Assembly (NCBI GenBank): GCA_017459445.1
Contig: JAFUDJ010000029.1
Span: 1 to 58,151 of the forward strand
Direction: 5' to 3'
From: Prevotella sp.
GTDB lineage: Bacteria > Bacteroidota > Bacteroidia > Bacteroidales > Bacteroidaceae
DNA length: 58,151 bases
Under the pieces are notes generated by a model. The model saw nothing but the letters and a program-made list of their open reading frames with translations, made no database searches and was not told where the DNA came from. Shown piece by piece: positions 9,317-20,079 of the stretch (position 1 is the first letter of the stretch; every line of letters begins with the position of its first letter). The translations under genes and the position numbers were made by a program.

Positions 9317-10219
9317 TCATTGCCACAGCGGTTCTTCCTCCCATCCATTGGGAAACCCCATTGCATTAGTGTCAATGGATGGGTAAGCGGACAGAAGTAC
9401 ATCAATTTTAGTTTTCATGTCGTTATTAGGCGAAATGATGTTCAGGAAATACTTGATGATGCAAAGGTCAAAGTAAATCCGAAGCGTGTCGGTGGGCCGA
9501 GTTATCCAACTGCCTGCTATGCGATTGGGGAGCATGGGACGAATAGTATTCTGCTTGTTCCATACACGGGCATGGTGACAGCAGGAATTACGGGTTAGGG
9601 TTATAATGGTAAGCCACGATTCAAAAGGTGCCACCTGCAAACCAAATCTCCGAGCAATACTTTTCTTGATTCGGGCGACCTTGATATTGCTAAAAATGTT
9701 GGTAACGACACCGAAGGGCAAGACCTCTGCCAATATCCAGGCTGGAGGGTAGGCATCAGAATAGGTCTGCTTGAAGTGGACAATGAAATCTTCGCGTGAG
9801 CGGTGAAGTTCGGCATCTATCAAGTCCATAGTACGGCGAAACTTTCCTGTATCAATGAAATTGCTGCCATCTGTCATCCAGAAAGGATTGCCAGTCATGT
9901 CACTTCCGATATTGACAATCGCACTTCGCACAGCCACCTCTATTTTTTCTATCTCATTAAAGATGAGCAGGCGAAGTTTCTTGTCGAAACGATAGAGCAT
10001 CATCACTTGGCTAAACGTTGCGCTCGGTTTATAACGGTGTTGCTCCTTTGGCATCTGCAATAAAGGATACATATAGGCAGACAGACGGTAATAGCCTATA
10101 TATTCAAGGTAACTCTCTGCCTTTGCTGTATCTGTAACAGTCAAGCCTCTTGACTGCAAGAGCCTGACAAGGTCGTGTGCACTGGTGTACGGTTTCTGGA
10201 AGGGGATTCTGTTGCTCAT
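9317..10219 (-). CDS. Abi_2 (AbiD/AbiF-like) family protein, copy 1
   Basis: A 300-aa Abi_2 protein. Typical segments are SAHDLVRLLQSRGLTV, AESYLEYIGYYRLSAYMYPL, MMLYRFDKKLRLLIFNEIEKIEVAVRSAI (two overlapping blocks) and NSCCHHARVWN, which resembles the RxxxxH-type motif of the HEPN-like Abi_2 fold. The family gives abortive infection against phage in lactococci, where it is thought to act on RNA. I chose ATG 10219 because the longer frame would start inside a structured leader. A promoter and an RNA hairpin with T-tract lie directly upstream. It shares the ending FPNGWEEEPLW with copy 2 (FVNGWDSEPIW). Anti-phage function here is inferred from family only. Confidence 0.85.
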   Translation of the reverse strand: MSNRIPFQKPYTSAHDLVRLLQSRGLTVTDTAKAESYLEYIGYYRLSAYMYPLLQMPKEQHRYKPSATFSQVMMLYRFDKKLRLLIFNEIEKIEVAVRSAIVNIGSDMTGNPFWMTDGSNFIDTGKFRRTMDLIDAELHRSREDFIVHFKQTYSDAYPPAWILAEVLPFGVVTNIFSNIKVARIKKSIARRFGLQVAPFESWLTIITLTRNSCCHHARVWNKQNTIRPMLPNRIAGSWITRPTDTLRIYFDLCIIKYFLNIISPNNDMKTKIDVLLSAYPSIDTNAMGFPNGWEEEPLWQ

Positions 10220-10224
10220 AGTAT

Positions 10225-10309
10225 AAAAAAAAACGACCCGCACATTTGAGCATCCTTCTTGCATTGGCAAGCGACTGAGGTCGAGCGGAGAGGCTTGGCG
10301 GGTTCTGGT
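10225..10309 (-). ncRNA. Structured leader RNA of Abi copy 1 (abiF-RNA-like)
   Basis: Read on the minus strand, ACCCGC (10303-10298) pairs with GCGGGT (10241-10236), closing a loop of about 56 nt. Nine T residues (10233-10225) follow, and the ATG is only 6 nt further on. The layout looks like an intrinsic terminator placed just before the gene. The blocks CAAGAA, TGCT and GCGGGTC before the T-tract recur in the leader of copy 2. A conserved RNA upstream of Abi_2 genes has been described as the abiF RNA motif; assignment to it here is my inference. Confidence 0.65.
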
Positions 10310-10313
10310 GGTG

Positions 10314-10345
10314 CAAAGGTACTGATTTTATTCGGGTTGGCCAAA
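10314..10345 (-). promoter_or_regulatory. Promoter of Abi copy 1 and its leader RNA
   Basis: Minus-strand TTTGG (10345-10341), 19 nt spacer, TACCTTTG (10321-10314): a full-match Bacteroidetes promoter. Transcription should begin near 10308. Confidence 0.8.
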
Positions 10346-10392: not shown

Positions 10393-10424
10393 TTTGGCTG
10401 TTCGCCAAATTATTTCTAACTTTG
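10393..10424 (+). promoter_or_regulatory. Promoter of surface protein 1
   Basis: TTTGG at 10393-10397 and TAACTTTG at 10417-10424 are spaced 19 nt apart. The promoter diverges from the Abi copy 1 promoter about 50 bp away, leaving a 5' leader of about 130 nt. Confidence 0.8.
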
Positions 10425-10450
10425 CAAACCAGTTTATGAAGGCAGGCCGT

Positions 10451-10472
10451 GGCAGAGCATACCGCCTCTGCC
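10451..10472 (+). promoter_or_regulatory. Hairpin in the 5' leader of surface protein 1
   Basis: GGCAGAG (10451-10457) pairs with CTCTGCC (10466-10472) over an 8-nt loop, well inside the untranslated leader. It could influence mRNA stability or translation. Confidence 0.5.
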
Positions 10473-10558
10473 CACAACGACAGGCAAAGGCCGCCGCAGG
10501 GGAAAACGACCCCACAGGAAAAGAATTGATTGACAGTATTAACTAAATTTTAAACATT

Positions 10559-13516
10559 ATGAAAAAACTATTTTTACTTAAATGCATGCTCCTGCTATGC
10601 GCCCTCGTAGCAGGCAGCGGAAGTGCGTGGGCGCAAGCTACTTTGCCATTCGAGTATGATGGTGGTAAGCCGTCTAATGTGACAGGTTTCACGCATAGTG
10701 GATTAGGAGATAATTATTCGAGTTCTCCTAAAATGAAGTTTGACAATGCAGGTGACTATGCTACATTGTATTTTACAGGGAAACCAGGAAAATTGTCTTT
10801 CACAATAAAACTAAACGGAACCGCAAATGCAAATAATACCTTTACTGTTAGCACATCCTCTAATGGAAGCGATTTTTCTGTATTAAAGACATACAAAGGA
10901 ACTACAGACATTCCGACTTCTAATAAAACCTATACTATTGAAGAAAGCGAATTTCCAAATGGAACTCAATACATAAGGTGGACTTATGTTACAAAGGGAA
11001 GCGGTAATGTCGGTTTGGGCAAGATAAAGCTTGAAGCAGGAACAGCTTCTGGCGAAGCAACTACATTAACTATTGACGCTTCTGGTATTACAAATACGGA
11101 TGTTGCTGCCGGCACAACTGCTGGAACACTTGTCGCAACGGTCAAAGATGACTCAAACGAAGCTATTGAAGGCGCTGTAGTAACATGGAATTCCAGTAAC
11201 GAAGCTGTTGCTACCATTGGAACCTCTACAGGTGTTGTAACACTTGTTGGCAAGGGGAGCACAACGATAACAGCAAATTATGCCGGCGTTGAAGACGAAT
11301 ATCAGCCTTCTTCCAATACTTACACGTTAACCGTTATCAATAGTGACGAGAACGACGGAAGTCTGGAAAGACCTTATACAGCCACAGAGGCTTACGACAT
11401 CATTAATGCGTTTACGAGCTCATCGGCTACAACTGAAAAGTATTACGTAACAGGCAAAATTGTTAGCTTCTATAACACAAATGGCGTCTATTCAGATAAT
11501 TACAAGAGATACTATATTTCAGAAGACGGAACAACCACAAAACAAATTCTTGTCTACAATGGTAAGAATCTGGGTAATAACGCCTTTACCAGCAATGATG
11601 ATTTAGCAGTAGGTGACAATGTTGTTATCTATGGACCATTCCAGAAATATAATGGAGCGGTGGAAATCTCCGCAGGAAACTACATCTACTCTCTGAATGG
11701 TAAGAAGGCTGCCGGCCTCGCTTATGCAACGGCATCGTACAACACTCATCCTAATGCAACATTCGCAACACCAGAGCTGACGAACCCGAACAACCTGACG
11801 GTGAGCTATGCTTCTAACAACACAGAAGTTGCAGAGGTTAACGCCACAACGGGTGCCGTGACTATCAAGGAAGAAGGAACGGCAAAGATTACAGCGACAT
11901 TCGCAGGCAACGACAGCTTTGCGGCTGATGAGGTGTCTTATACGATAACCGTTGCCCGTCAGGCAGCCGGACTTTCCTACTCTCCGACGAGCAGAACCAT
12001 TACCATTGACGACACTTTCACTGCTCCTACTTTCAGCAATCCTAACAACCTTGCTGTAACCTACGCCTCAGACAATACTGATGTGGCAACAGTAGCTGCC
12101 GACGGAACCATCACTTGCAAGAATGTTGCAGGAACCGCAACTATTACTGCCACGTCGGCACAAAACGATGAGTACAAAGCCGGTAGTGCGACGTTTACGC
12201 TGACCGTGAATAAAAAGGTGAACATCCTTACCCTCACAAAGGTAAATTATGAGAATGTGGACGTGACCACGGAACTGGATATAGCAGACCTCTATAGCGC
12301 TACAGACGTAACAGGTGGCGTAACGGTTACTTCCGACCATCCTGAGATAGTAGCCGTTGTAGGTGACAAGCTGAAGACGCTTTCTTTGGGCAAGGCCGTC
12401 ATCACAATCTCCATTGCAGAGTCCGACACTTATAAATCGGTCAGTGACAACGTGAACGTTTGGGTAACCTGCAACACCCCGGCAGCCACTTATGAAGGCA
12501 ATGGAATTGGCAATGGATATTCATTGGTGACAGATGCTTCTACGTTGAGTGCTGGCGACAAGATAATTTTTGTAAATACAACAACAAACGGCACTGGTTA
12601 TGCAATGTCAACAACTCAGAATGGTAACAACCGAGGAACTGCTTCTGTAACTGTGAGCGATAAGGCAATTTCAAGCATTGGCAGCAGTGTTCAAGAGATT
12701 ACTTTGGAAGGTGATGCTGATGGCTGGTATTTTAATACAGGAGCAGGCTATCTTTATGCAGCATCCAATGGCAGTAATCATCTGAAGACACAAGCAACAA
12801 AGAACGATAATGCAAAAGCTACAATTGAAATTGCGGAAAGTGGGAGTGCTGCCACTGTCGTATTCCAAGGGGAGTATACACATAATGAAGTTCGCTTTAA
12901 TGGAACTTTAGTTTCATGCTATTTGTCAACATCTGATATGGCGAAGCCCTACATTTATCGTCTCAACGAAGCTACGGAGTTTGATATTAGCATTACTGAT
13001 GCGGGTTGGCGTACGCTGATTTCTTCCAAAGACGTGTCGCTGCCAGAAGGTGTCAAGGCTTACATTGTCACAGAAAACGACGAGACATCTGCAAAACTGA
13101 CGGAGGTTAGCAGCGTCAAAGCCAATACTCCTTATCTGCTGCAAGGTGCTGAGGGTGACCACACGCTGACCATTATCGACAGTGCCGATGAGCCTGTAGG
13201 CAACCTGCTGCAAATCAGTACCAATACAACGGGTAACGGAGTTTATGTATTGGCCGATGATGAAGACGGAATTGGTTTCTATAAGTACAACCGTGGTTCG
13301 CTGGGTGCAGGCCGTGTCTACCTGCCCGCTCCTTCTTCCGGCTCTGGCGCCCGCTTTATGGCATTTAGCTTCGACGACGAGTCGACGGGTATCAGCGCTT
13401 CGCTAATGAACAGTGAAAGAGTGAATGGTGAAGTTTACAACCTCAACGGTCAGCGCGTGATGAATCCCGTCAAGGGCCTGTACATCGTGAACGGTCGCAA
13501 GGTGGTCGTGAAATAA
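10559..13516 (+). CDS. Secreted Ig-like (BIG2) surface protein with Por-type tail, copy 1
   Basis: A 985-aa protein with a signal peptide (residues 1-25, ending GSAWAQ). After an N-terminal beta-rich domain (about 27-165) come BIG2-type Ig-like domains at about 167-260, 378-466 and 470-552, recognisable by VVTWNSSNEAVATI and VTYASDNTDVATVAADGTIT. An OB-fold-like domain resembling DUF6359 lies at about 262-375 (RPYTATEAYDIINAF). Two further beta-rich domains follow. The last 45 residues (GEVYNLNGQRV, KGLYIVNGRKVVVK) match the type A-like C-terminal sorting tail of Bacteroidetes. No catalytic motif is visible, so adhesion or binding is the best guess. Base composition is AT-richer than the flanking core genes. 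Confidence 0.8.
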   Translation: MKKLFLLKCMLLLCALVAGSGSAWAQATLPFEYDGGKPSNVTGFTHSGLGDNYSSSPKMKFDNAGDYATLYFTGKPGKLSFTIKLNGTANANNTFTVSTSSNGSDFSVLKTYKGTTDIPTSNKTYTIEESEFPNGTQYIRWTYVTKGSGNVGLGKIKLEAGTASGEATTLTIDASGITNTDVAAGTTAGTLVATVKDDSNEAIEGAVVTWNSSNEAVATIGTSTGVVTLVGKGSTTITANYAGVEDEYQPSSNTYTLTVINSDENDGSLERPYTATEAYDIINAFTSSSATTEKYYVTGKIVSFYNTNGVYSDNYKRYYISEDGTTTKQILVYNGKNLGNNAFTSNDDLAVGDNVVIYGPFQKYNGAVEISAGNYIYSLNGKKAAGLAYATASYNTHPNATFATPELTNPNNLTVSYASNNTEVAEVNATTGAVTIKEEGTAKITATFAGNDSFAADEVSYTITVARQAAGLSYSPTSRTITIDDTFTAPTFSNPNNLAVTYASDNTDVATVAADGTITCKNVAGTATITATSAQNDEYKAGSATFTLTVNKKVNILTLTKVNYENVDVTTELDIADLYSATDVTGGVTVTSDHPEIVAVVGDKLKTLSLGKAVITISIAESDTYKSVSDNVNVWVTCNTPAATYEGNGIGNGYSLVTDASTLSAGDKIIFVNTTTNGTGYAMSTTQNGNNRGTASVTVSDKAISSIGSSVQEITLEGDADGWYFNTGAGYLYAASNGSNHLKTQATKNDNAKATIEIAESGSAATVVFQGEYTHNEVRFNGTLVSCYLSTSDMAKPYIYRLNEATEFDISITDAGWRTLISSKDVSLPEGVKAYIVTENDETSAKLTEVSSVKANTPYLLQGAEGDHTLTIIDSADEPVGNLLQISTNTTGNGVYVLADDEDGIGFYKYNRGSLGAGRVYLPAPSSGSGARFMAFSFDDESTGISASLMNSERVNGEVYNLNGQRVMNPVKGLYIVNGRKVVVK

Positions 13517-13532
13517 AGGAATAAAAAAATCG

Positions 13533-13710
13533 TAACTATTCAGCGAATACGCATGAATTATGTCTTCAAAAACAAATTGGCACGAATTGGCACAAATTAC
13601 GGCCACCAAAGTGGCCTGCTCAACAAATATTTATGATAATTTGTGGATAGAATTAGTGATAATTTGCGGGAATTTGTTTCAAAAAAAGAGGCTCGTGACA
13701 ATTCGCTGAA
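13533..13710. repeat. MITE-like inverted repeat after surface protein 1
   Basis: AACTATTCAGCGAAT near 13533 is inverted at about 13697-13710 as ATTCGCTGAATAGT; AACAAATT near 13570 and AATTTGTT near 13672 extend the arms. The centre holds GGCCACCAAAGTGGCC, a short hairpin. The right arm repeats the sequence at 9263-9306. No gene is seen in 13517-13780. Confidence 0.65.
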
Positions 13711-13719
13711 TAGTGAAAA

Positions 13720-13750
13720 ATCCTTTAAATCCTTAAAATCCTTAGACAAA
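13720..13750 (+). promoter_or_regulatory. 9-mer repeat leader before small acidic peptide 1
   Basis: Three 9-nt units (ATCCTTTAA, ATCCTTAAA, ATCCTTAGA) followed by CAAAAAGAAAA stand 30 nt before the peptide ATG. A nearly matching set lies before peptide 2 at 18690-18726. Confidence 0.6.
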
Positions 13751-13780
13751 AAGAAAACCAATTAAAAATAGAAAAGCAAG

Positions 13781-13930
13781 ATGAAAAAGACATATATCAT
13801 TCCTGATGTACAGGAAATCCGCATTGAGACGGTATCGCTAATAGCCGCCTCTATAGAAACAAAAGGAGAATTGAGCAGTAGTGGCAAGCTTCTTGGTCGT
13901 CAAGGCTTCTTCGACGACGAAGAGGACTAA
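13781..13930 (+). CDS. Small acidic peptide, copy 1 (unrecognised family)
   Basis: A 49-aa open frame, ATG to TAA: MKKTYIIPDVQEIRIE at the start, SLIAAS at 19-24, and GRQGFFDDEED at the end. I do not recognise a named family, although I recall hypothetical Prevotella peptides of this shape. It shares MKK-Y--P, an I/L-AAS block, and R-G-FDD with an acidic end with the 52-aa peptide at 18761, and both follow a CTD-tailed surface protein. There is no membrane segment and no classical signal peptide. The AAS block looks like a possible cleavage point between leader and acidic core (inference). A perfect hairpin follows the stop by 11 nt. Confidence 0.75.
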   Translation: MKKTYIIPDVQEIRIETVSLIAASIETKGELSSSGKLLGRQGFFDDEED

Positions 13931-13941
13931 GCATTCCCGGA

Positions 13942-13980
13942 GTTTGGAGCCTCCATTCAAGGCGTTTGGAGGCTCCAAAC
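13942..13980 (+). terminator. Perfect 14-bp hairpin after peptide 1
   Basis: GTTTGGAGCCTCCA (13942-13955) and TGGAGGCTCCAAAC (13967-13980) pair perfectly over an 11-nt loop. There is no T-tract, so it may stabilise the 3' end rather than terminate. A second palindrome (GTTTGCAC, G, GTGCAAAC) follows at 13986-14002. Confidence 0.65.
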
Positions 13981-14033
13981 ACTCCGTTTGCACGGTGCAA
14001 ACTTCCGCAAACCAAGCTCTTTGCTTCCACAAA

Positions 14034-14127
14034 CATAGTACTTACGACTCATAACTATGGCACTTTTGAATGAAAAGTATGGCATTTAACACACGTAAAC
14101 ATGGTACTTAGCAGCGCTAAATACCAT
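14034..14127 (+). repeat. Four-unit 22-nt hairpin array
   Basis: Units start at 14034, 14056, 14078 and 14100, exactly 22 nt apart, each opening YATRGYAYTT. Each unit can fold on itself or with the next (for example CATAGT at 14034 with ACTATG at 14054). The last unit is the stem of an intrinsic terminator. I know no named element with this layout. Confidence 0.7.
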
Positions 14128-14136
14128 CTTTTTTTT
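14101..14136 (+). terminator. Intrinsic terminator ending the hairpin array
   Basis: ATGGTA-C-TTAGC pairs with GCTAA-A-TACCAT over a 3-nt loop and is followed, after one C, by eight T residues. It should stop read-through from the surface protein / peptide unit before the ATPase gene. Confidence 0.8.
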
Positions 14137-14244
14137 GTAATGAAAACTGGGAATTGGTGCAGGTTGGAAGGATGGAAGGATGAAAAAGCTTCACCGTAAG
14201 TCTATACAGCTCAGATTTTCACTGAAAAAATATTTCCGAATCGC

Positions 14245-14275
14245 TTGGCGGTTCGGTTTTTTCTTTCTACCTTTG
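14245..14275 (+). promoter_or_regulatory. Promoter of the AAA ATPase
   Basis: TTGG at 14245-14248, 19 nt spacer, TACCTTTG at 14268-14275. The leader would be about 110 nt and contains the repeats at 14286-14371. The stretch 14137-14244 holds no gene or clear structure. Confidence 0.75.
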
Positions 14276-14285
14276 CAGCCACAAG

Positions 14286-14371
14286 GTGTATTTTAAAGAA
14301 AGCACTTTTGTGAAGAAAGTGTATTTTACGGAGAACACTTTTGATAAGAAAATGTTCTTTAGAGAGAACAT
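14286..14371 (+). repeat. 33-bp direct repeats and palindrome in the ATPase leader
   Basis: Two imperfect 33-bp repeats (14286-14318 and 14319-14351) begin GTGTATTTTA and end TTTTGTGAAGAAA or TTTTGATAAGAAA. They are followed by a 20-nt unit in which ATGTTCT pairs with AGAACAT (14352-14371). Each repeat start is itself weakly self-complementary (GTG...CAC). The array lies between promoter and start codon, so it is part of the mRNA. Confidence 0.75.
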
Positions 14372-14393
14372 GCATTGAATTGGCATAAGGGAT

Positions 14394-15599
14394 ATGGAAA
14401 GACTTTTTGAACGCCACGATGCTGCAATCTCCACGGTATCGATGGAGTATGTGCGCAATATCATGCAACGGATTCACTGGAATTCGCGGTTGATTGCCAT
14501 CAGAGGACCGAAGGGCGTTGGCAAATCAACACTCATGAAGCAATACATCAAGAGCCATTTTGAGCCAGGCGACCGTCATGTGCTCTATTGTTCTGCTGAC
14601 ACCAACTATTTCACTACTCATACTCTATTGGAGGTGGCAGAGAAATTTGTAAAGAGGGGTGGCCAGTGGCTGTTTATCGACGAAGTGCACAAATATCCGG
14701 GATGGAGCCGTGAGATAAAGGAGGTCTACGACCTATATGCTCATCTGCATATAGTGGTCAGCGGCTCGTCGCTCATACAGATTAATGACGGGCAGGCAGA
14801 CCTGTCCCGTCGCCTTATCGTGCATGACATGCCGGGGCTGTCGTTGCGTGAGTTCCTGCGTCTTGACGTAGGCCTGGACTTTGAGCCCATACTGCTGGAC
14901 CAACTGCTGGAAAGGCCAGCGAAGTTCTGCATAGATGTGTGTGCTCAATGTCACCCGTTGGAACATTTCAGCCGTTATCTGCAATATGGCTACTATCCGT
15001 TTTTCTTTGAGGAGAAGCCGGAGTACTACGACAAAGTGGAGGGTGTGGTCAACTATACCATCGACGTGGAACTGACTAAGCACCGCAATATGGAAGTGGG
15101 CAACACCCGTAAAGTGAAGGCCCTGCTGCAAGTCATTTCACAGATGACTCCATACGAAGTGGATATTGCCAAACTGTCCAAAGCCACAGGCATTATGCGC
15201 ACTACGGTTCTGAAGTATATGAGTTATTTGGAGGAGGCCAGCCTTATCCGCCGTCTGTTTACTGACCTGATGAGGATTACTGATTTGCAGAAGCCAGACA
15301 AGATGTATCTGGACAACTCTAATTTGCTCTATGCTCTCTGTCCGCAGAGGCCAGAGATTGGCACAGTAAGAGAAACATTCTTTGCCAACCAGCTGGCATC
15401 GGCAGGCCACAAAGTGGAGTATGCAGGCTACAAGAAGGGTGATTTCCGCATCGATAGGAACATAGTGGTTGAGGTTGGCGGTGAGGACAAAGGTTTCAGC
15501 CAATTGGCCGGGCAGGAACATTCTTTTGTGGCTGCCGATGACATCGAATCGGCCTATGAAAGGAAAATTCCTCTCTGGGCCTTCGGTTTCTTGTATTGA
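14394..15599 (+). CDS. AAA family ATPase with DUF4143-type C-terminus
   Basis: A 401-aa ATPase. The Walker A motif is GPKGVGKST (residues 38-46), Walker B is WLFIDEVHK (92-100), and sensor-like SGSSLIQI follows. The C-terminal part with a winged-helix-like segment (LSKATGIMRTTVLKYMSYLE), then KMYLDNSNLLYAL and VVEVGGEDKG near the end, matches the DUF4143 type. Such ATPases are abundant and mobile in Bacteroidetes; their function is not settled. It has its own promoter and terminator and sits between the two surface-protein modules. Whether it belongs to them or is an independent insertion is open. Confidence 0.85.
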   Translation: MERLFERHDAAISTVSMEYVRNIMQRIHWNSRLIAIRGPKGVGKSTLMKQYIKSHFEPGDRHVLYCSADTNYFTTHTLLEVAEKFVKRGGQWLFIDEVHKYPGWSREIKEVYDLYAHLHIVVSGSSLIQINDGQADLSRRLIVHDMPGLSLREFLRLDVGLDFEPILLDQLLERPAKFCIDVCAQCHPLEHFSRYLQYGYYPFFFEEKPEYYDKVEGVVNYTIDVELTKHRNMEVGNTRKVKALLQVISQMTPYEVDIAKLSKATGIMRTTVLKYMSYLEEASLIRRLFTDLMRITDLQKPDKMYLDNSNLLYALCPQRPEIGTVRETFFANQLASAGHKVEYAGYKKGDFRIDRNIVVEVGGEDKGFSQLAGQEHSFVAADDIESAYERKIPLWAFGFLY

Positions 15600-15668
15600 G
15601 AAATCAAACTTCTTCGTAACGTTTGCAACGTTAACAACTATCATCCTGTCGCAGTTCCTTGGCATTCA

Positions 15669-15710
15669 CATCCGGGGGCTGGCTACTGCTCAGACTCGGA
15701 TGCTTTTTTT
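15669..15710 (+). terminator. Terminator after the ATPase
   Basis: CATCCG (15669-15674) pairs with CGGATG (15697-15702) over a long loop, and seven T residues follow at 15704-15710. The rest of 15600-15837 shows no gene. Confidence 0.55.
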
Positions 15711-15837
15711 CGTGATACAAGGACACTAAGGAGTGAAATTAATAAGTTTCTCCATCCACAAATTATATTAAATGTTCGCGGGGAGGCCATAAAAGCTACA
15801 AATGTGGCCGTAATTTCTGATAATTTCTTTCTAAAAA

Positions 15838-15869
15838 CTTGGTGGTTTCCCAAAATATTATTATCTTTG
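15838..15869 (+). promoter_or_regulatory. Promoter of surface protein 2
   Basis: CTTGG at 15838-15842, 19 nt spacer, TATCTTTG at 15862-15869. The leader is about 85 nt, so the longer in-frame ATG at 15839 lies within the promoter and is not used. Confidence 0.75.
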
Positions 15870-15961
15870 CCCGCGAATTTTGCAAAATAACGGGAGTGCT
15901 TACATGCGGTAAGACTCTCTGCGACAAGATAATACTAACTAAATTTCAAACAAAAACAAAC

Positions 15962-18568
15962 ATGAAACAAAAACTATTTACTTTATTGACGCTACTGCTG
16001 GCGGTGTGCAGCGGGGCGTGGGCTACGGTATATGCAACGTATGCCGTTTCTTTGGAAAGTGCTAACGATGTGACAGCTACCAACACAGACAATTTCTTTA
16101 CGCTGAATACTGGTGGCGGCTTCAACACTAAGTACACAGGAACCTACGGAGGGAAAACCTACACTGCAGGATTGAAGATTAACAGCAGTAGTAGTATTAC
16201 GTTTACCACTGCTGTTAAGTCAGACATTACTATTGTGCAGTCGACTGCCAGCAATGGAACAAATAAATTCAAACTTGGTGGACAATCTGTAGCTCATACT
16301 GCAAGTGGTGCTACTATCACCATCGGCGGAACTGATGTCAGCTATACAATGACAGAGAACTCAACAGACAAAGTTAAAGTGTTCGTGTTTACAGATGTTC
16401 CTGCTACCAATGGATTGGCGATAACTAATGACAAAGAGACGGGGCTTCTTTACGTCAAGGTAGAACTTACAGAACAGAACACTAATCCCACGTTCAATGT
16501 TTCAGTTCCAGACAACAAACTGACCTTGAAGTCTGCCCCAGCACCATTTACACCAACAGCAACAGGTACATTCCAACTCAGTGGTGAGAACCTGACAGCA
16601 GGTACTTACAACTTCACGATTCCCAGTGTTTCGGGTACACTGTCTGTTTCACCAACCCAGATTACCATCCCTGAAGGTGGCACGCTGTCATCAACAACTT
16701 TCACCGTCAGCTATACAGGTCCTGGCACAGATGTGGCAGCTACCGATGTAAATATCACGGCAACAATAGATGAGCAGGTGGTGACTATTCCCGTCAACTA
16801 CCGTGCTATGGCATCCTTAACGTCGCAGACAACCGTTAGTGGCGACATTGAATGGGACTGGGCTAAAGTCAGCGGCTCTGACCGCTCTTCGATTAGCTCT
16901 GCGACGGTTTATGCTAACTATGATGAGTTTACCTTTGGCGAAGGCTTCGATGCCTCTGCGTTGGTAGTAAAGAGCAGCCCAAATATGCTCTCAAATGGTG
17001 CATTCCGTTTGGGGGAAATCAGCTTCACAACAAGCGTTGCTGGTACTGTGACCGTTACTTTCGCGAATACCAGTTCAAGCAATAAAAACCGCTATATTAC
17101 AGTGAAGAATGACAATACTACACAGACTGGTACCGTTGAGGCTGATGGAACTACTAAGCGTACTGAAAGTTTTGAGGTCGTTGCTGGTGAGGTAACCCTT
17201 GGCTCAGACAACAGCTATCTTCAGTTGTATAAGATAGAATTTGTTGCGGATAATGGCAAGACTGATTTGACGAGTTTTGCTTTCAGCGGTGGAACAACTA
17301 CGGTGACTACCGAGACGACTGACGACTTTGTTGCTCCCACCCTGACTGCAATGGCAGGTGAAGATAACGTGACCAGCACTATTGCTTCCAACGTTACTTA
17401 TGCAAGTAATAATACCGACGTGGCAACTGTTGATGCCTCTACCGGTGTCGTTACTCTGACAGGTACAGCGGGTACAGCAACCATCACCGCAACCTTAGCC
17501 GGCAATGACACCTATAAGGACAATACTGCAAGCTATACGATTACGGTAGAGGAGGTCGCTGCTACGGGAATTACGGCGGTTACGAGTAAGACGTGGACAT
17601 TTGGTGCATCAGAATGGAGTGGAATCAGTTCCACAAAAATTGTCGATAACATGGAAGTCATCACAAATACAAGCATTACCAGAAGCAGTGCTGCGGCAAA
17701 GACTTTTGATGACGGAAGTAGTTATTCGTATTATTTGAATACAAAATCAAATGGAATACCTCAATTACATATTAAGGTCGTTCCTTATAGCAAGATTTCT
17801 GTTTATACAGCAAATGGTAACGGACGAACTACAACAGTAAAAGTAGGCGAGAAGTCAGAAAGTGGTGATGTCTTAGTATCAGAAACTGGTGGTAACAATA
17901 ATCCAAAGATTGTTTCTTGTGCCTATACGGAAGAAGAGGATGGAGATATTTATATTTACAATAGCAGTTCATCAACTGGTTTGTATATCTACGCCGTTAA
18001 GGTCGAGCCTCTGCCCTCCGTTACTCTGAACACAAGCGGTTATGGAACATTCAGCTACGGTTCTGATGTTGAGATTGTTGGTGCAGATGCTTACACCGCT
18101 ACACTTGACGTGGACAATGCAAAGATTACCTGCACAAAGATTGCTGATGGCAAGGTGCCTGCCGGTGCTGGTGTGCTGCTCTATGGCGAGGCTTCGGCCA
18201 AGGCTTATCTGTGTCCTGCCTCCAGTGTTGCCGCCCTGTCGAACAACAATCTGAAGGGTACTACGAATGCCAGCGGTGAGACCGTAGAAAAGGGTAGCAA
18301 TACGTACTATGTGCTGAGCGGTGACACGTTCGTGACCTATAATGGTGATGCATTCTCTGCCAACAAGGCTTACTTCGAGGTAAGCAGCGGCACCGTACTG
18401 GCTCGTAACTTCAGCATCGTGTTTGAGGATGAGTCGACGGGCATCAGCGCTTCGCTAATGAATAGTGAAAAAGTAAATAGTGAAGTTTACAACCTCAATG
18501 GCCAGCGCGTGATGAATCCAACTAAGGGCCTGTATATCGTGAATGGTCGTAAGGTCGTGATTAAGTGA
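15962..18568 (+). CDS. Secreted Ig-like (BIG2) surface protein with Por-type tail, copy 2
   Basis: An 868-aa protein with a signal peptide (LLTLLLAVCSGAWA). A beta-rich N-terminal domain (about 22-155), an Ig-like domain (about 160-270), further beta domains and a BIG2 domain at about 435-535 (VTYASNNTDVATVDASTGVV) follow. The C-terminus (SEVYNLNGQRV, KGLYIVNGRKVVIK) is nearly identical to that of surface protein 1. No catalytic motif is seen. Start chosen at 15962 from the signal peptide and promoter. The two copies share their ends and their downstream small gene but not the same domain order, so they look like members of a family rather than a recent duplication. Confidence 0.8.
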   Translation: MKQKLFTLLTLLLAVCSGAWATVYATYAVSLESANDVTATNTDNFFTLNTGGGFNTKYTGTYGGKTYTAGLKINSSSSITFTTAVKSDITIVQSTASNGTNKFKLGGQSVAHTASGATITIGGTDVSYTMTENSTDKVKVFVFTDVPATNGLAITNDKETGLLYVKVELTEQNTNPTFNVSVPDNKLTLKSAPAPFTPTATGTFQLSGENLTAGTYNFTIPSVSGTLSVSPTQITIPEGGTLSSTTFTVSYTGPGTDVAATDVNITATIDEQVVTIPVNYRAMASLTSQTTVSGDIEWDWAKVSGSDRSSISSATVYANYDEFTFGEGFDASALVVKSSPNMLSNGAFRLGEISFTTSVAGTVTVTFANTSSSNKNRYITVKNDNTTQTGTVEADGTTKRTESFEVVAGEVTLGSDNSYLQLYKIEFVADNGKTDLTSFAFSGGTTTVTTETTDDFVAPTLTAMAGEDNVTSTIASNVTYASNNTDVATVDASTGVVTLTGTAGTATITATLAGNDTYKDNTASYTITVEEVAATGITAVTSKTWTFGASEWSGISSTKIVDNMEVITNTSITRSSAAAKTFDDGSSYSYYLNTKSNGIPQLHIKVVPYSKISVYTANGNGRTTTVKVGEKSESGDVLVSETGGNNNPKIVSCAYTEEEDGDIYIYNSSSSTGLYIYAVKVEPLPSVTLNTSGYGTFSYGSDVEIVGADAYTATLDVDNAKITCTKIADGKVPAGAGVLLYGEASAKAYLCPASSVAALSNNNLKGTTNASGETVEKGSNTYYVLSGDTFVTYNGDAFSANKAYFEVSSGTVLARNFSIVFEDESTGISASLMNSEKVNSEVYNLNGQRVMNPTKGLYIVNGRKVVIK

Positions 18569-18640
18569 GAATAAAGCAGAGCTTGCTCATGCTTTATCGA
18601 GCGTGAACGAGCTCAAGCTTTAGCTTAAGGTCGTGATTAA
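18551..18640 (+). repeat. Duplicated 3' gene end around a hairpin insert
   Basis: AAGGTCGTGATTAA, the last codons of surface protein 2, occurs at 18551-18564 and again at 18627-18640. The 62 nt between hold a hairpin (AAAGCAGAGC with GCTC and TGCTTT). This looks like an insertion with a target duplication or a slipped copy of the gene end. Confidence 0.65.
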
Positions 18641-18655
18641 ATAAGGATTGAATAA

Positions 18656-18719
18656 TGTCTAAGGAGTTTAGGAGACAAGGAACTCGAAAATCTCCTTTTA
18701 ATCCTTAATTCCTTAGACA
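18656..18719 (+). promoter_or_regulatory. Hairpin leader before small acidic peptide 2
   Basis: TGTCTAAGGA (18656-18665) pairs with TCCTTAGACA (18710-18719), and AGGAGA (18670-18675) with TCTCCT (18691-18696). The right side holds the same 9-mer repeat (CTCCTTTTA, ATCCTTAAT, TCCTTAGAC) as the leader of peptide 1. Confidence 0.6.
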
Positions 18720-18760
18720 ACAAGAAAAAGTAGAACACTAATAAAAGAGAATAAAACAAA

Positions 18761-18919
18761 ATGAAAAAGATATATAGCAAGCCCTCTTTGGAGGCACATA
18801 AGATTACGGTGAGCGCATTCCTTGCAGCCTCGCCCGACGTGAAGTTTGACCCGACACAGCAATCTTCATCAATGGATGCCCGTCGCGGCTGGTTCGACGA
18901 CGCTGACGACGACGAATAA
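18761..18919 (+). CDS. Small acidic peptide, copy 2 (unrecognised family)
   Basis: A 52-aa open frame: MKKIYSKPSLEAHKIT at the start, FLAAS at 20-24, and RRGWFDDADDDE at the end. It is clearly related in layout to the 49-aa peptide at 13781 (MKK-Y--P, I/L-AAS, R-G-FDD plus acidic end) while the middle differs. It lies 192 nt after a surface protein with the same C-terminal tail. A 13-bp perfect hairpin follows 17 nt after the stop. I cannot assign a function; a precursor, signal or inhibitor peptide are all possible. The repeat occurrence with matching context argues that it is a real gene. Confidence 0.75.
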   Translation: MKKIYSKPSLEAHKITVSAFLAASPDVKFDPTQQSSSMDARRGWFDDADDDE

Positions 18920-18936
18920 GCATGATATTTATTCTT

Positions 18937-18977
18937 ACAACAGCAGCTATGGCCGTAATGACTGTAGCTGCTGTTGT
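18937..18977 (+). terminator. Perfect 13-bp hairpin after peptide 2
   Basis: ACAACAGCAGCTA (18937-18949) pairs perfectly with TAGCTGCTGTTGT (18965-18977) over a 15-nt loop. As with peptide 1 there is no T-tract. Confidence 0.65.
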
Positions 18978-19040
18978 CGTTGTTGACAACATTGCTATAC
19001 ATTGCTGTTAGCAACGTTGAGTCAAAAAATAACAGAAAAG

Positions 19041-19072
19041 TTTGGTAGTTTCAAATAAAATAGTTAACTTTG
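19041..19072 (+). promoter_or_regulatory. Promoter of Abi copy 2 and its leader RNA
   Basis: TTTGG at 19041-19045, 19 nt spacer, TAACTTTG at 19065-19072; the same spacing as Abi copy 1. Transcription should start near 19079. Confidence 0.8.
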
Positions 19073-19078
19073 CAGCAG

Positions 19079-19164
19079 AAAATCTTGGAGCACTGCTCCG
19101 ATTACCGATAAGAGTCCCCGCCGTGCATACCACAAGAACTGCTGGCGGGTCATTTTTTTTATTC
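19079..19164 (+). ncRNA. Structured leader RNA of Abi copy 2 (abiF-RNA-like)
   Basis: A first hairpin GGAGC-ACT-GCTCC (19087-19099) is followed by CCCGCC (19117-19122) pairing with GGCGGG (19144-19149), then TCA and eight T residues (19153-19160), four nt before the ATG. The blocks CAAGAA, TGCT, GCGGGTC and the T-tract match the copy 1 leader on the opposite strand, although the two Abi proteins are quite diverged. This favours a conserved RNA role rather than chance. Confidence 0.7.
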
Positions 19165-20079
19165 ATGGAAAATCAAAAATCACTGTCTATAGCAGAACAG
19201 GTGGCATCTTTGAAAAAGAGGGGTATGTCACTTGACGAAGTTTTCGCTTGCGACCTCTTGAGTAAAATAAGCTATTTCAGACTGAAGCCATATTGGTGGG
19301 ATATGCGAGACTTTGACACTGACGAGGATTTCTTACCTGGTTCAGACTTTTTATTGGCTATTCAGCGCTATGATTTTGACCGTGACATGCGACTCGTCCT
19401 GTTTGAAGCCGTAGAGGGTATTGAAATAGCCTTGCGTACCAAGATGATAAACCATCTTTCGGACAGTAAAGGCAGTCTTTGGTATCTTGATAATTCTCTT
19501 TTTGAGAATAAGGACTTGTTTGTTGAGCATATTTTGGATTTGAAGAAAGAGTTTAATAGGAGTAAAGACCGTGTTGCCATTGAGTTTCGTGAGAGTCATA
19601 ATTGGATTGACTGTGAGTTGGAAGGTGACCATCCTGAGGCATGGGTGATTTTTGAGATGGCAACTTTTGGTACATTATCCAAGATATATAAAAACCTTAA
19701 ACACCAATTACCTGAAAAATCTTCCATAGCCAATGAATTCGGAATGAATTTCAGTAGCGACTTGTCTAACTGGTTCGAGAGTATTTCTGTATTCCGTAAC
19801 ATTATTGCCCATCATTCCCGTCTTTGGAATTTTCGATTGACTAAGACGCCTGTCAAACCAAAGTCCATGCGGGGTCCATGGATAAAAGCAGAACTTTCTC
19901 AAAACCAGAAGAAAGCCCCATACTTCACTATAACGAACATGCTCTATTTGTGTAATGCTGTAAGGCCGGACAATCATGTAAAGGAGCATTTGAAGGTTTT
20001 GTTTGAAAAATACCCTAAGGTGAATCCTTCAAAGTGGGGGTTTGTAAACGGATGGGATAGCGAGCCAATTTGGAGATAA
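19165..20079 (+). CDS. Abi_2 (AbiD/AbiF-like) family protein, copy 2
   Basis: A 304-aa Abi_2 protein. It shows SIAEQVASLKKRGMSL, LLSKISYFRLKPYWWDM, AIQRYDFDRDMRLVLFEAVE, GIEIALRTKMINHLS and RNIIAHHSRLWN, the last matching the family's conserved R-H segment. Start 19165 is chosen because the longer frame begins in the promoter. It is well diverged from copy 1 but keeps the ending GFVNGWDSEPIWR. The composition is AT-rich compared with the DUF2851 gene 15 nt downstream. A defence role is inferred from the family. Confidence 0.85.
   Translation: MENQKSLSIAEQVASLKKRGMSLDEVFACDLLSKISYFRLKPYWWDMRDFDTDEDFLPGSDFLLAIQRYDFDRDMRLVLFEAVEGIEIALRTKMINHLSDSKGSLWYLDNSLFENKDLFVEHILDLKKEFNRSKDRVAIEFRESHNWIDCELEGDHPEAWVIFEMATFGTLSKIYKNLKHQLPEKSSIANEFGMNFSSDLSNWFESISVFRNIIAHHSRLWNFRLTKTPVKPKSMRGPWIKAELSQNQKKAPYFTITNMLYLCNAVRPDNHVKEHLKVLFEKYPKVNPSKWGFVNGWDSEPIWR

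Follow-up and report, generated by a model that had tools for sequence, protein, structure and literature searches.

Two genes for secreted surface proteins, each followed on the forward strand by a gene for a small acidic peptide, lie in the 58,151-nucleotide stretch of Prevotella sp. DNA analysed here (contig JAFUDJ010000029.1 of GenBank assembly GCA_017459445.1, hereafter the window). On our best reading these pairs represent a variant of a very recently described type of ribosomally synthesized and post-translationally modified peptide (RiPP), coupled to surface proteins. We consider it probable that the small genes are dispersed precursors resembling the linear polyphosphorylated peptides (LPPs) of Popov and colleagues, that they are matured in trans by an operon with a RiPP recognition element (RRE), and that their products act with the surface proteins of their own operons. 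The evidence consists of a recurrent gene pairing, a protein domain that predicts the peptide, purifying selection on the peptide genes, the layout of their leaders and a set of intact machinery genes. The source is a metagenome-assembled genome (G000, with the window as contig C11) of 1.97 Mb in 46 contigs, 55% complete.

Pairing of peptides and surface proteins

A peptide profile built from 15 sequences returns 19 matches in this genome at E<=1e-3. Eighteen of these lie directly 3′ of a gene on the same strand whose product bears the same kind of C-terminal tail as the two window proteins; the exception is a 26-aa open reading frame (ORF) at C3:72906. One extra pair came from reading the tail proteins themselves, which gives 19 units in this incomplete genome. 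The stop-to-start spacer is just 18-34 nt in 8 of the 19 pairs; the others reach lengths of as much as 272 nt, and several of the long ones consist of repeat elements. Many tail proteins are unpaired: among the 44 that we read, out of 81 tail matches in the genome (the 42 best plus the two in the window), 25 have no peptide.

The family is common in the genus, where at least one peptide (E<=1e-4) is found in 257 of 299 sampled genomes and the richest holds at least 22. A sample of the order gives matches in 8 of 294 genomes, our own included; three genomes of a second family (f106) account for 24 of the 32 copies outside our genome, and four others have 1-4 weak matches each. Among 40 relatives, matches are confined to 1 of 17 genera. 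Twelve named loci are labelled Bacteroidaceae (seven), Prevotella (two), Prevotellaceae, Bacteroidales and Tidjanibacter (one each), and come mostly from ruminant guts.

For an unselected count of neighbours we took all 91 peptide matches in 11 genomes, 19 from our own and 72 from ten others. We distinguish here between the tail and the pre-tail domain (PTD), the roughly 135 residues before the tail that are common to the paired proteins of our genome. In our genome a PTD lies upstream of 16 of the 19 matches, and a tail upstream of two more. In the other ten a PTD (E<=1e-6, within 1.2 kb upstream) is present for 35 of 72. The other 37 comprise 28 with a tail protein upstream by reading, one (L334) that follows a dockerin-like end, two (L298 and L299) at contig edges, and six that lack such a neighbour, among them both peptides of G010, a genome without SprA. 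In 6 of the 37 a weak PTD (E 6e-9 to 3e-6) does emerge once the neighbour is searched alone. The first-pass annotation of this window had named a predominance of homologues without surface-protein neighbours as a ground for giving up the pairing, and no such predominance emerged: a secreted tail or PTD protein is upstream of 63 of the 72 peptides.

Loci chosen by their peptide matches agree. A tail is directly upstream in 21 of the 24 best-match loci of relatives that could be read (of 29; L075 belongs to our own genome), with other ORFs at L069 and L072 and no clear tail at L080. The figures are 11 of 12 for the named loci, where L094 has a dockerin-like protein instead, and 15 of 20 for the loci of the order search (20 of 25 read, two of them from our genome), where L122 is dockerin-like and L101, L104, L105 and L110 have none. 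All 26 readable loci of the genus search, 21 of them new, have the tail (26 of 27 are in the count; L268 was read separately). The pairing of peptide and surface protein is thus real at the level of genes and wider than two copies: it recurs across a genus and in a second family.

Some loci depart from the simple layout. At L094 and at L122, which is the same place as L334, the secreted protein before the peptide has dockerin-like repeats (by eye) at its C-terminus in place of a tail. Two different peptides, L329 and L331, stand in tandem behind a single tail protein in G129:C28. At L294:2479-3501 (G350) and L295 (G416) the peptide ORF continues in frame into a signal-peptide-like stretch, which at L294 is followed by a DNA/RNA non-specific endonuclease (PF01223, E 5.5e-27); L295 is alike by eye.

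The pre-tail domain and the tail

The PTD is a good predictor of the peptide, and no requirement for it. Searched in 14 genomes, it gives 94 matches at E<=1e-6, 19 of them in our genome, where 17 come with a peptide. We read 60 of the 75 matches outside our genome, leaving out six tandem ones in one protein and nine weaker ones, and found a peptide by eye in 42 of the 60, including 27 of the best 30; a pattern search also gave 42, but it counted a chance ORF (no. 59) and missed a real peptide (no. 34). A stricter pattern gives 40 of 60. By comparison of coordinates, 10 of the 60 were training sequences of the model; among the 50 that were not, the strict pattern finds a peptide after 30, versus 0 of 20 PTD-less tails (Fisher P 8.5e-7), although this control, 14 tails from G007 and six from G022, was hand-picked from the listed matches, and a PTD-less tail outside the set, at a contig edge (G022:C24:144), does carry a peptide. 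The two-by-two table for our own genome (17/2/2/23, P 4e-8) is circular, since most PTDs there trained the model. The claim that the peptide follows PTD proteins only was rejected: a PTD accompanies 51 of all 91 peptides. No relative of the PTD was found in the PDB at E<=1. In our genome the content of T, S, N and G tends to be higher in paired proteins (0.29-0.42 vs 0.25-0.36). One 1614-aa open frame in G001:C4:37893-40667 has seven tandem PTD matches, and then a peptide (L183).

The tails are matched neither by PF18962 nor by TIGR04183, the models for the type A C-terminal domain (CTD) of the type IX secretion system (T9SS). The proteins share with type A CTD substrates that they are secreted, have a short, conserved, basic C-terminal tail and occur with SprA, and differ from them in that these two models do not recognize the tail. 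SprA_N, of the T9SS translocon, is found in 37 of 40 genomes, our own included, and in G010, a 99% complete congener without SprA, no tail reaches E<=1e-8. We therefore take the tails to be probable T9SS signals despite the lack of a match to the type A models. A comparison of the tails of L093, L087, L056 and L081 with those of the window shows two kinds, YNLNGQRV..KGLYIVNGKKVVIK and GKFIENGKLVIVKNGVKYNAAGAKLY, which have two motifs in common but in opposite order.

Anatomy of the peptides

Our collection holds 66 peptides (67 rows minus one false), 55 of them non-redundant; Tyr and Pro were set by the collecting pattern and the junction was loosely constrained by it. The 15 profile-found peptides of our genome have M1, K2, K3, Y5, P8 and S24 invariant. 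The 55 start with K-K-x-Y-x-x-P and alternating hydrophobic positions, continue with two hydrophobic residues and often have A-[AG]-S at the junction, with Ser exactly 19 residues past Tyr in 44 of them. In 21 new loci chosen by the Y..P start alone, the junction Ser is present in 21 of 21 and A-x-S in 19. Information falls from 1-2.5 bits in the leader to about 0.3-0.5 past the junction Ser, where a variable stretch leads to a C-terminus with many Trp/Phe, Asp and Glu residues (21-62 residues from the junction to the end); the net charge past the junction averages about -6.

Comparison of 21 related peptide pairs gives a pooled proportion of synonymous differences (pS) of 0.51 and of nonsynonymous differences (pN) of 0.17, although the pairs are non-independent. 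Of the 18 computable ratios 15 lie at 0.04-0.33, one is 0.49 and two exceed 1 with one synonymous change each; three pairs are saturated. By these sequence comparisons, the peptide genes are under purifying selection. Searches of Pfam and NCBIfam gave no family for the peptides, and single weak matches (one to a lasso model, E 0.03) were not used. No sequence of prevotellin-2 was found for comparison.

The leader resembles two known kinds of precursor. YxxP is the motif read by the PqqD-type RREs of lasso peptides, according to the parts of PMC12710340 and PMC10368454 that we draw on. It also occurs in the LPP precursor, with the motif YxxPxVLxHQxIxFETxxS, of the lppA/K/B/S/D/N cluster of Paenibacillus alginolyticus (PMC13381572, 2026). 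In the part of that report available to us, LppB is a discrete RRE, LppN an NTP (nucleoside triphosphate) transferase and the exporter MsbA-like. LppK, an HprK-like kinase, phosphorylates S3 of a core beginning AQS; this Ser lies 18 residues past the Tyr of the YxxP in LppA and is the sole phosphorylation site, and in LPPs it is phosphorylated several times. LppS, an archaeal-type signal-peptidase-like protease (S29, H68, D93), cuts before A1 with the assistance of LppB. According to its authors, LPPs occur in Bacillota only, and what they do for the cell is not known.

Our peptides share with LPPs the YxxP leader, an A-x-S at about equal distance from the Tyr and a variable C-terminal part. 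They differ in coming from Bacteroidales rather than Bacillota, in being encoded by 19 dispersed genes rather than by 1-3 inside a cluster, in that most stand behind a secreted tail-bearing protein, and in a C-terminus of Trp/Phe and Asp/Glu. With lasso precursors, whose leaders read YxxPxL and whose B1 RREs include TfuB1 and PbaB1, they have the type of recognition motif and the RRE family in common, but they lack a conserved Gly1, and we noticed no cyclase or B2 protease in the operons that we read, where no profile search for them was made.

Candidate maturation machinery

A candidate operon is found in our genome at G000:C35. Its adjacent genes encode, in order, an HprK-like kinase (TIGR00679, E 3.5e-4; HprK-related kinase A, E 0.002), a signal-peptidase-like protease (TIGR02228, archaeal type, E 8e-5), an RRE (lasso PqqD models, E 5e-6) and an ABC exporter (MsbA_rel, E 3e-67). 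The NCBIfam scores are below the curated cut-offs and so name the kind of protein, not its family. LPP clusters likewise combine a discrete PqqD-like RRE, an archaeal-type signal-peptidase-like Ser/His/Asp protease, an HprK-like kinase and an MsbA-like exporter. We call the peptides LPP-like and do not file them as LPP members, because no precursor gene lies inside the cluster of our genome.

The same four genes, again adjacent, are present in G129 of family f106. PF05402 exceeds its cut-off in 10 of the 14 genomes searched, with one copy in nine and five in G007, and the RRE, the HprK-like kinase and the archaeal-type signal peptidase occur together in our genome, G129, G007, G008, G010, G012, G016 and G022. 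The key residues are intact: Ser31, His69 and Asp84 of the protease, the equivalents of the LppS triad, are kept in all 10 aligned sequences, and the P-loop and NDD of the kinase in all 11. Compared with the PDB, the RRE profile matches the lasso RREs TfuB1 (E 4e-4) and PbaB1 (0.023) and, weakly, LppB (0.71). The MsbA-like exporter belongs to the cluster in our genome and in G129, and by reading a similar ORF is present in G007:C2.

No peptide of this kind lies beside the operon of our genome; such a neighbour of RRE genes is seen in G007 and G004 alone, and the cores there are different. The two loci concerned in G007, L240 and L241, are RiPP clusters, each with two RREs, an HprK-like kinase, a signal-peptidase-like protease and small Cys-bearing precursors. 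Pfam and NCBIfam identify a radical SAM/SPASM maturase in L240, and L241 has a similar ORF. Both clusters carry MEVKKKFEKPQM[EK]VVKLKPA.. peptides. When a hidden Markov model (HMM) of our own leaders is run against 1830 small ORFs from 12 RRE loci (nested starts counted), the two G007 peptides and the G004 peptide near an RRE gene take ranks 1-3. The G007 clusters connect a leader of this type with the enzyme set, and do so within the genus of the window. The kinase is found in 20 of the 23 genomes that have peptides and in 4 of the 11 that have none (P 0.005, kinship not accounted for), with divergent or partial matches in G004, G021, G031 and G224.

The two units of the window

The first-pass annotation described two secreted proteins with the same C-terminal tail, each followed by an acidic peptide of 49 or 52 aa, and these are present. 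Surface protein 1 (985 aa, 10559..13516, forward strand, as are all features of the units) has a signal-peptide-like start (by eye), Big_2 domains and, C-terminally, a PTD (12989..13363; E 6.5e-40) and a tail (13364..13513; VYNLNGQRV..KGLYIVNGRKVVVK), a probable T9SS sorting signal with no match in Pfam or NCBIfam. Surface protein 2 (868 aa, 15962..18568) has a CBM77 match near its N-terminus, a PTD (18020..18418; E 1.6e-31) and a tail of the same kind (18416..18565); the sequences of both PTDs were in the training set of the profile. The description of both as BIG2 proteins holds for the first only, the second giving CBM77 instead in the Pfam scan. Their last 50 aa are 86% identical.

Peptide 1 (49 aa, 13781..13930) has the YxxP leader, a predicted core from A-A-S at residue 22 (nt 13844) and an acidic FFDDEED end. 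Peptide 2 (52 aa, 18761..18919) has the same leader, A-A-S at residues 22-24 and a ARRGWFDDADDDE end. The two are 35% identical.

Other elements that had been assigned to the units did not hold up as parts of them. No promoter stands out: there are 14 sigma-70-like sites versus 14.8 in shuffled sequence, in a scan that does not cover Bacteroidetes promoters. A leader of 9-mer repeats like AAATCCTTA does exist as repeats in the spacer before peptide 1 (13530..13750), which consists of dispersed genomic repeats including copies of AAATCCTT(A/T); its positions 13530-13715 form a partly palindromic intergenic repeat that matches elsewhere in the genome in some 20 more rows, with copies on either strand. 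The spacer before peptide 2 has an imperfect inverted repeat, also a dispersed element (GTCTAAGGA..TCCTTAGAC, 18656..18719). The perfect hairpins seen after each peptide are there as well, with 14-nt arms at 13942..13980 (arms 13942-13955/13967-13980) and 13-nt arms at 18937..18977 (arms 18937-18949/18965-18977). The first has a near-identical copy after the peptide of L012 and is absent in other units, and the second is no general unit component. We regard repeats and hairpins as incidental because of these dispersed rows, some of the copies being located away from peptides, and because so many spacers in the genome are very short. A mir-194 match at 18923-18990, which corresponds to the hairpin after peptide 2, was below the cut-off and was rejected.

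As far as the proteins go, the first-pass annotation was correct that the units did not arise by a single recent duplication, but 3′ ends (tail, spacer and start of peptide) are exchanged between loci: positions 13400-13799 are 89% identical over 400 nt to a unit on another contig. Abi_2 genes flank the two units, at 9317-10316 (reverse strand) and 19042-20079 (forward strand), and an abiF RNA (RF03085) accompanies the first at 10236-10302 with 38.1 bits against a cut-off of 37.

Proposed mechanism and alternatives

In the mechanism that we propose, each precursor gene would follow the gene of a T9SS-type surface protein as second cistron, and a single operon elsewhere in the genome would serve all precursors in trans. 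The RRE would hold the YxxP leader, the kinase would phosphorylate the Ser that is conserved at the A-x-S junction, the protease would cut the leader off immediately before A-x-S, and the exporter would release an acidic core of about 28-47 residues (in our genome). Outside, the core may work with the surface protein of its operon, probably at the C-terminal region, on the PTD or tail side. Recognition, cleavage, phosphorylation, export and contact with the surface protein are steps that we infer. Among the roles that the first-pass annotation had guessed, that of a precursor fits best, as a RiPP type matured in trans, and that of a maturation or sorting helper does not; its suggestion that peptide and surface protein work together is borne out at the level of genes, with the function to be read as predicted. 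A bolder version, which we consider rather unlikely, is that the products are phosphopeptide partners dedicated to surface proteins: many adhesin-like T9SS cargo genes would have their own RiPP precursors and share one enzyme set, and the mature peptide would dock on the C-terminal region of the cargo, to which it might be a ligand or a cofactor, or which it might link to the cell surface.

Several observations weigh against the scheme. The operon is far from the 19 precursors and is linked to them by resemblance and co-occurrence, and the latter is the weakest link of the argument: it hardly discriminates within the genus, and where other families are compared, kinship confounds the difference. 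The kinase was not found in G001 (which has 12 peptides), G023 and G298, all peptide-bearing, although genome incompleteness could explain such misses, about 3.7 being expected over the 23 genomes from the sum of their completeness; conversely, the search of relatives shows no peptides in G004, G013 and G016, all of which have the kinase (G013 has one match in the genus search). The MsbA-like exporter was not seen beside the other three genes in G008, G016 and G022, and no NTP transferase was noticed among the ORFs read near the operon, most of which were unscanned against families. The leader HMM gives modest E-values near RRE loci (0.02-0.3), and 11 of the 55 peptides lack Ser at exactly +19, most being one residue off. 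Contact with the PTD in particular is weakened by the 37 of 72 peptides without a recognisable one, which lowers the odds of docking and raises those of a role independent of the surface protein.

Such a role, as a signal or antimicrobial matured by the RRE operon, with the surface proteins merely co-regulated, would suit the variable core, the diversity of the partners, half of which have no recognisable PTD, and the loci without a tail gene (L069, L072, L080; L101, L104, L105, L110; L300, L310, L311, L312, L326, L328). It sits less well with the high proportion of peptides that do follow a secreted tail or PTD protein and with the power of the PTD to predict the peptide, and we hold it to be rather unlikely. 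Alternatively, the peptide could be an unprocessed cytoplasmic helper of the surface protein before Sec export (an escort, chaperone or translational partner) whose acidic end binds the basic tail. The spacers are often 11-35 nt, or the genes overlap, the charge past the junction is opposite to that of the tails, no Sec-type signal is seen in the peptides (by eye only), and most partners have the tail. But most of the tail proteins read in our genome are free of the peptide, as are all 20 PTD-less ones taken from G007 and G022, and a fixed leader with A-x-S and then a variable stretch would be odd for a chaperone, so that we give this idea only a modest chance.

The exchange of 3′ ends and the dispersed repeats in the spacers raise the question of whether tail, C-terminal domain and peptide simply spread together as a recombining cassette, with a peptide function not tied to the protein; purifying selection on the peptide and the persistence of the linkage in diverged units of the second family make this quite improbable. 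Export by a double-glycine (GG) peptidase-containing ATP-binding transporter (PCAT), as for other Bacteroidales RiPPs and bacteriocins, is the least credible of the alternatives and was rejected. Available parts of PMC10352776 associate PCATs with GG precursors in Bacteroidales; those are small precursor genes as well, with a leader that differs from ours, although [AG]-S after two hydrophobic residues is loosely like a double-glycine site. The C39 peptidase (PF03412) was found only in G003, G010 and G020 and not in the other 11 of the 14 genomes, which include the peptide-bearing G007, G008, G012, G022 and G129 and some of which are incomplete; this largely refutes the idea.

Significance

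Among the open-licence PMC papers that our searches listed, none was seen to link T9SS cargo to such peptides, or LPPs to Bacteroidota. If our reading of the small genes as LPP-like precursors is true, the LPP type of RiPP extends to Bacteroidales, and many precursors have gone unannotated because they are located behind surface-protein genes, outside biosynthetic clusters. The recurring partner protein would offer a direct handle on the role of LPPs, which the available part of PMC13381572 gives as unknown. In a gut genus that is widespread, a likely function would also be at hand for a family of small genes without a match in Pfam or NCBIfam, and for a secreted-protein domain that is so far uncharacterised. 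Were the docking version to be true as well, this would be a RiPP class with its job built into the cell surface and a large repertoire per genome, as opposed to a free natural product.

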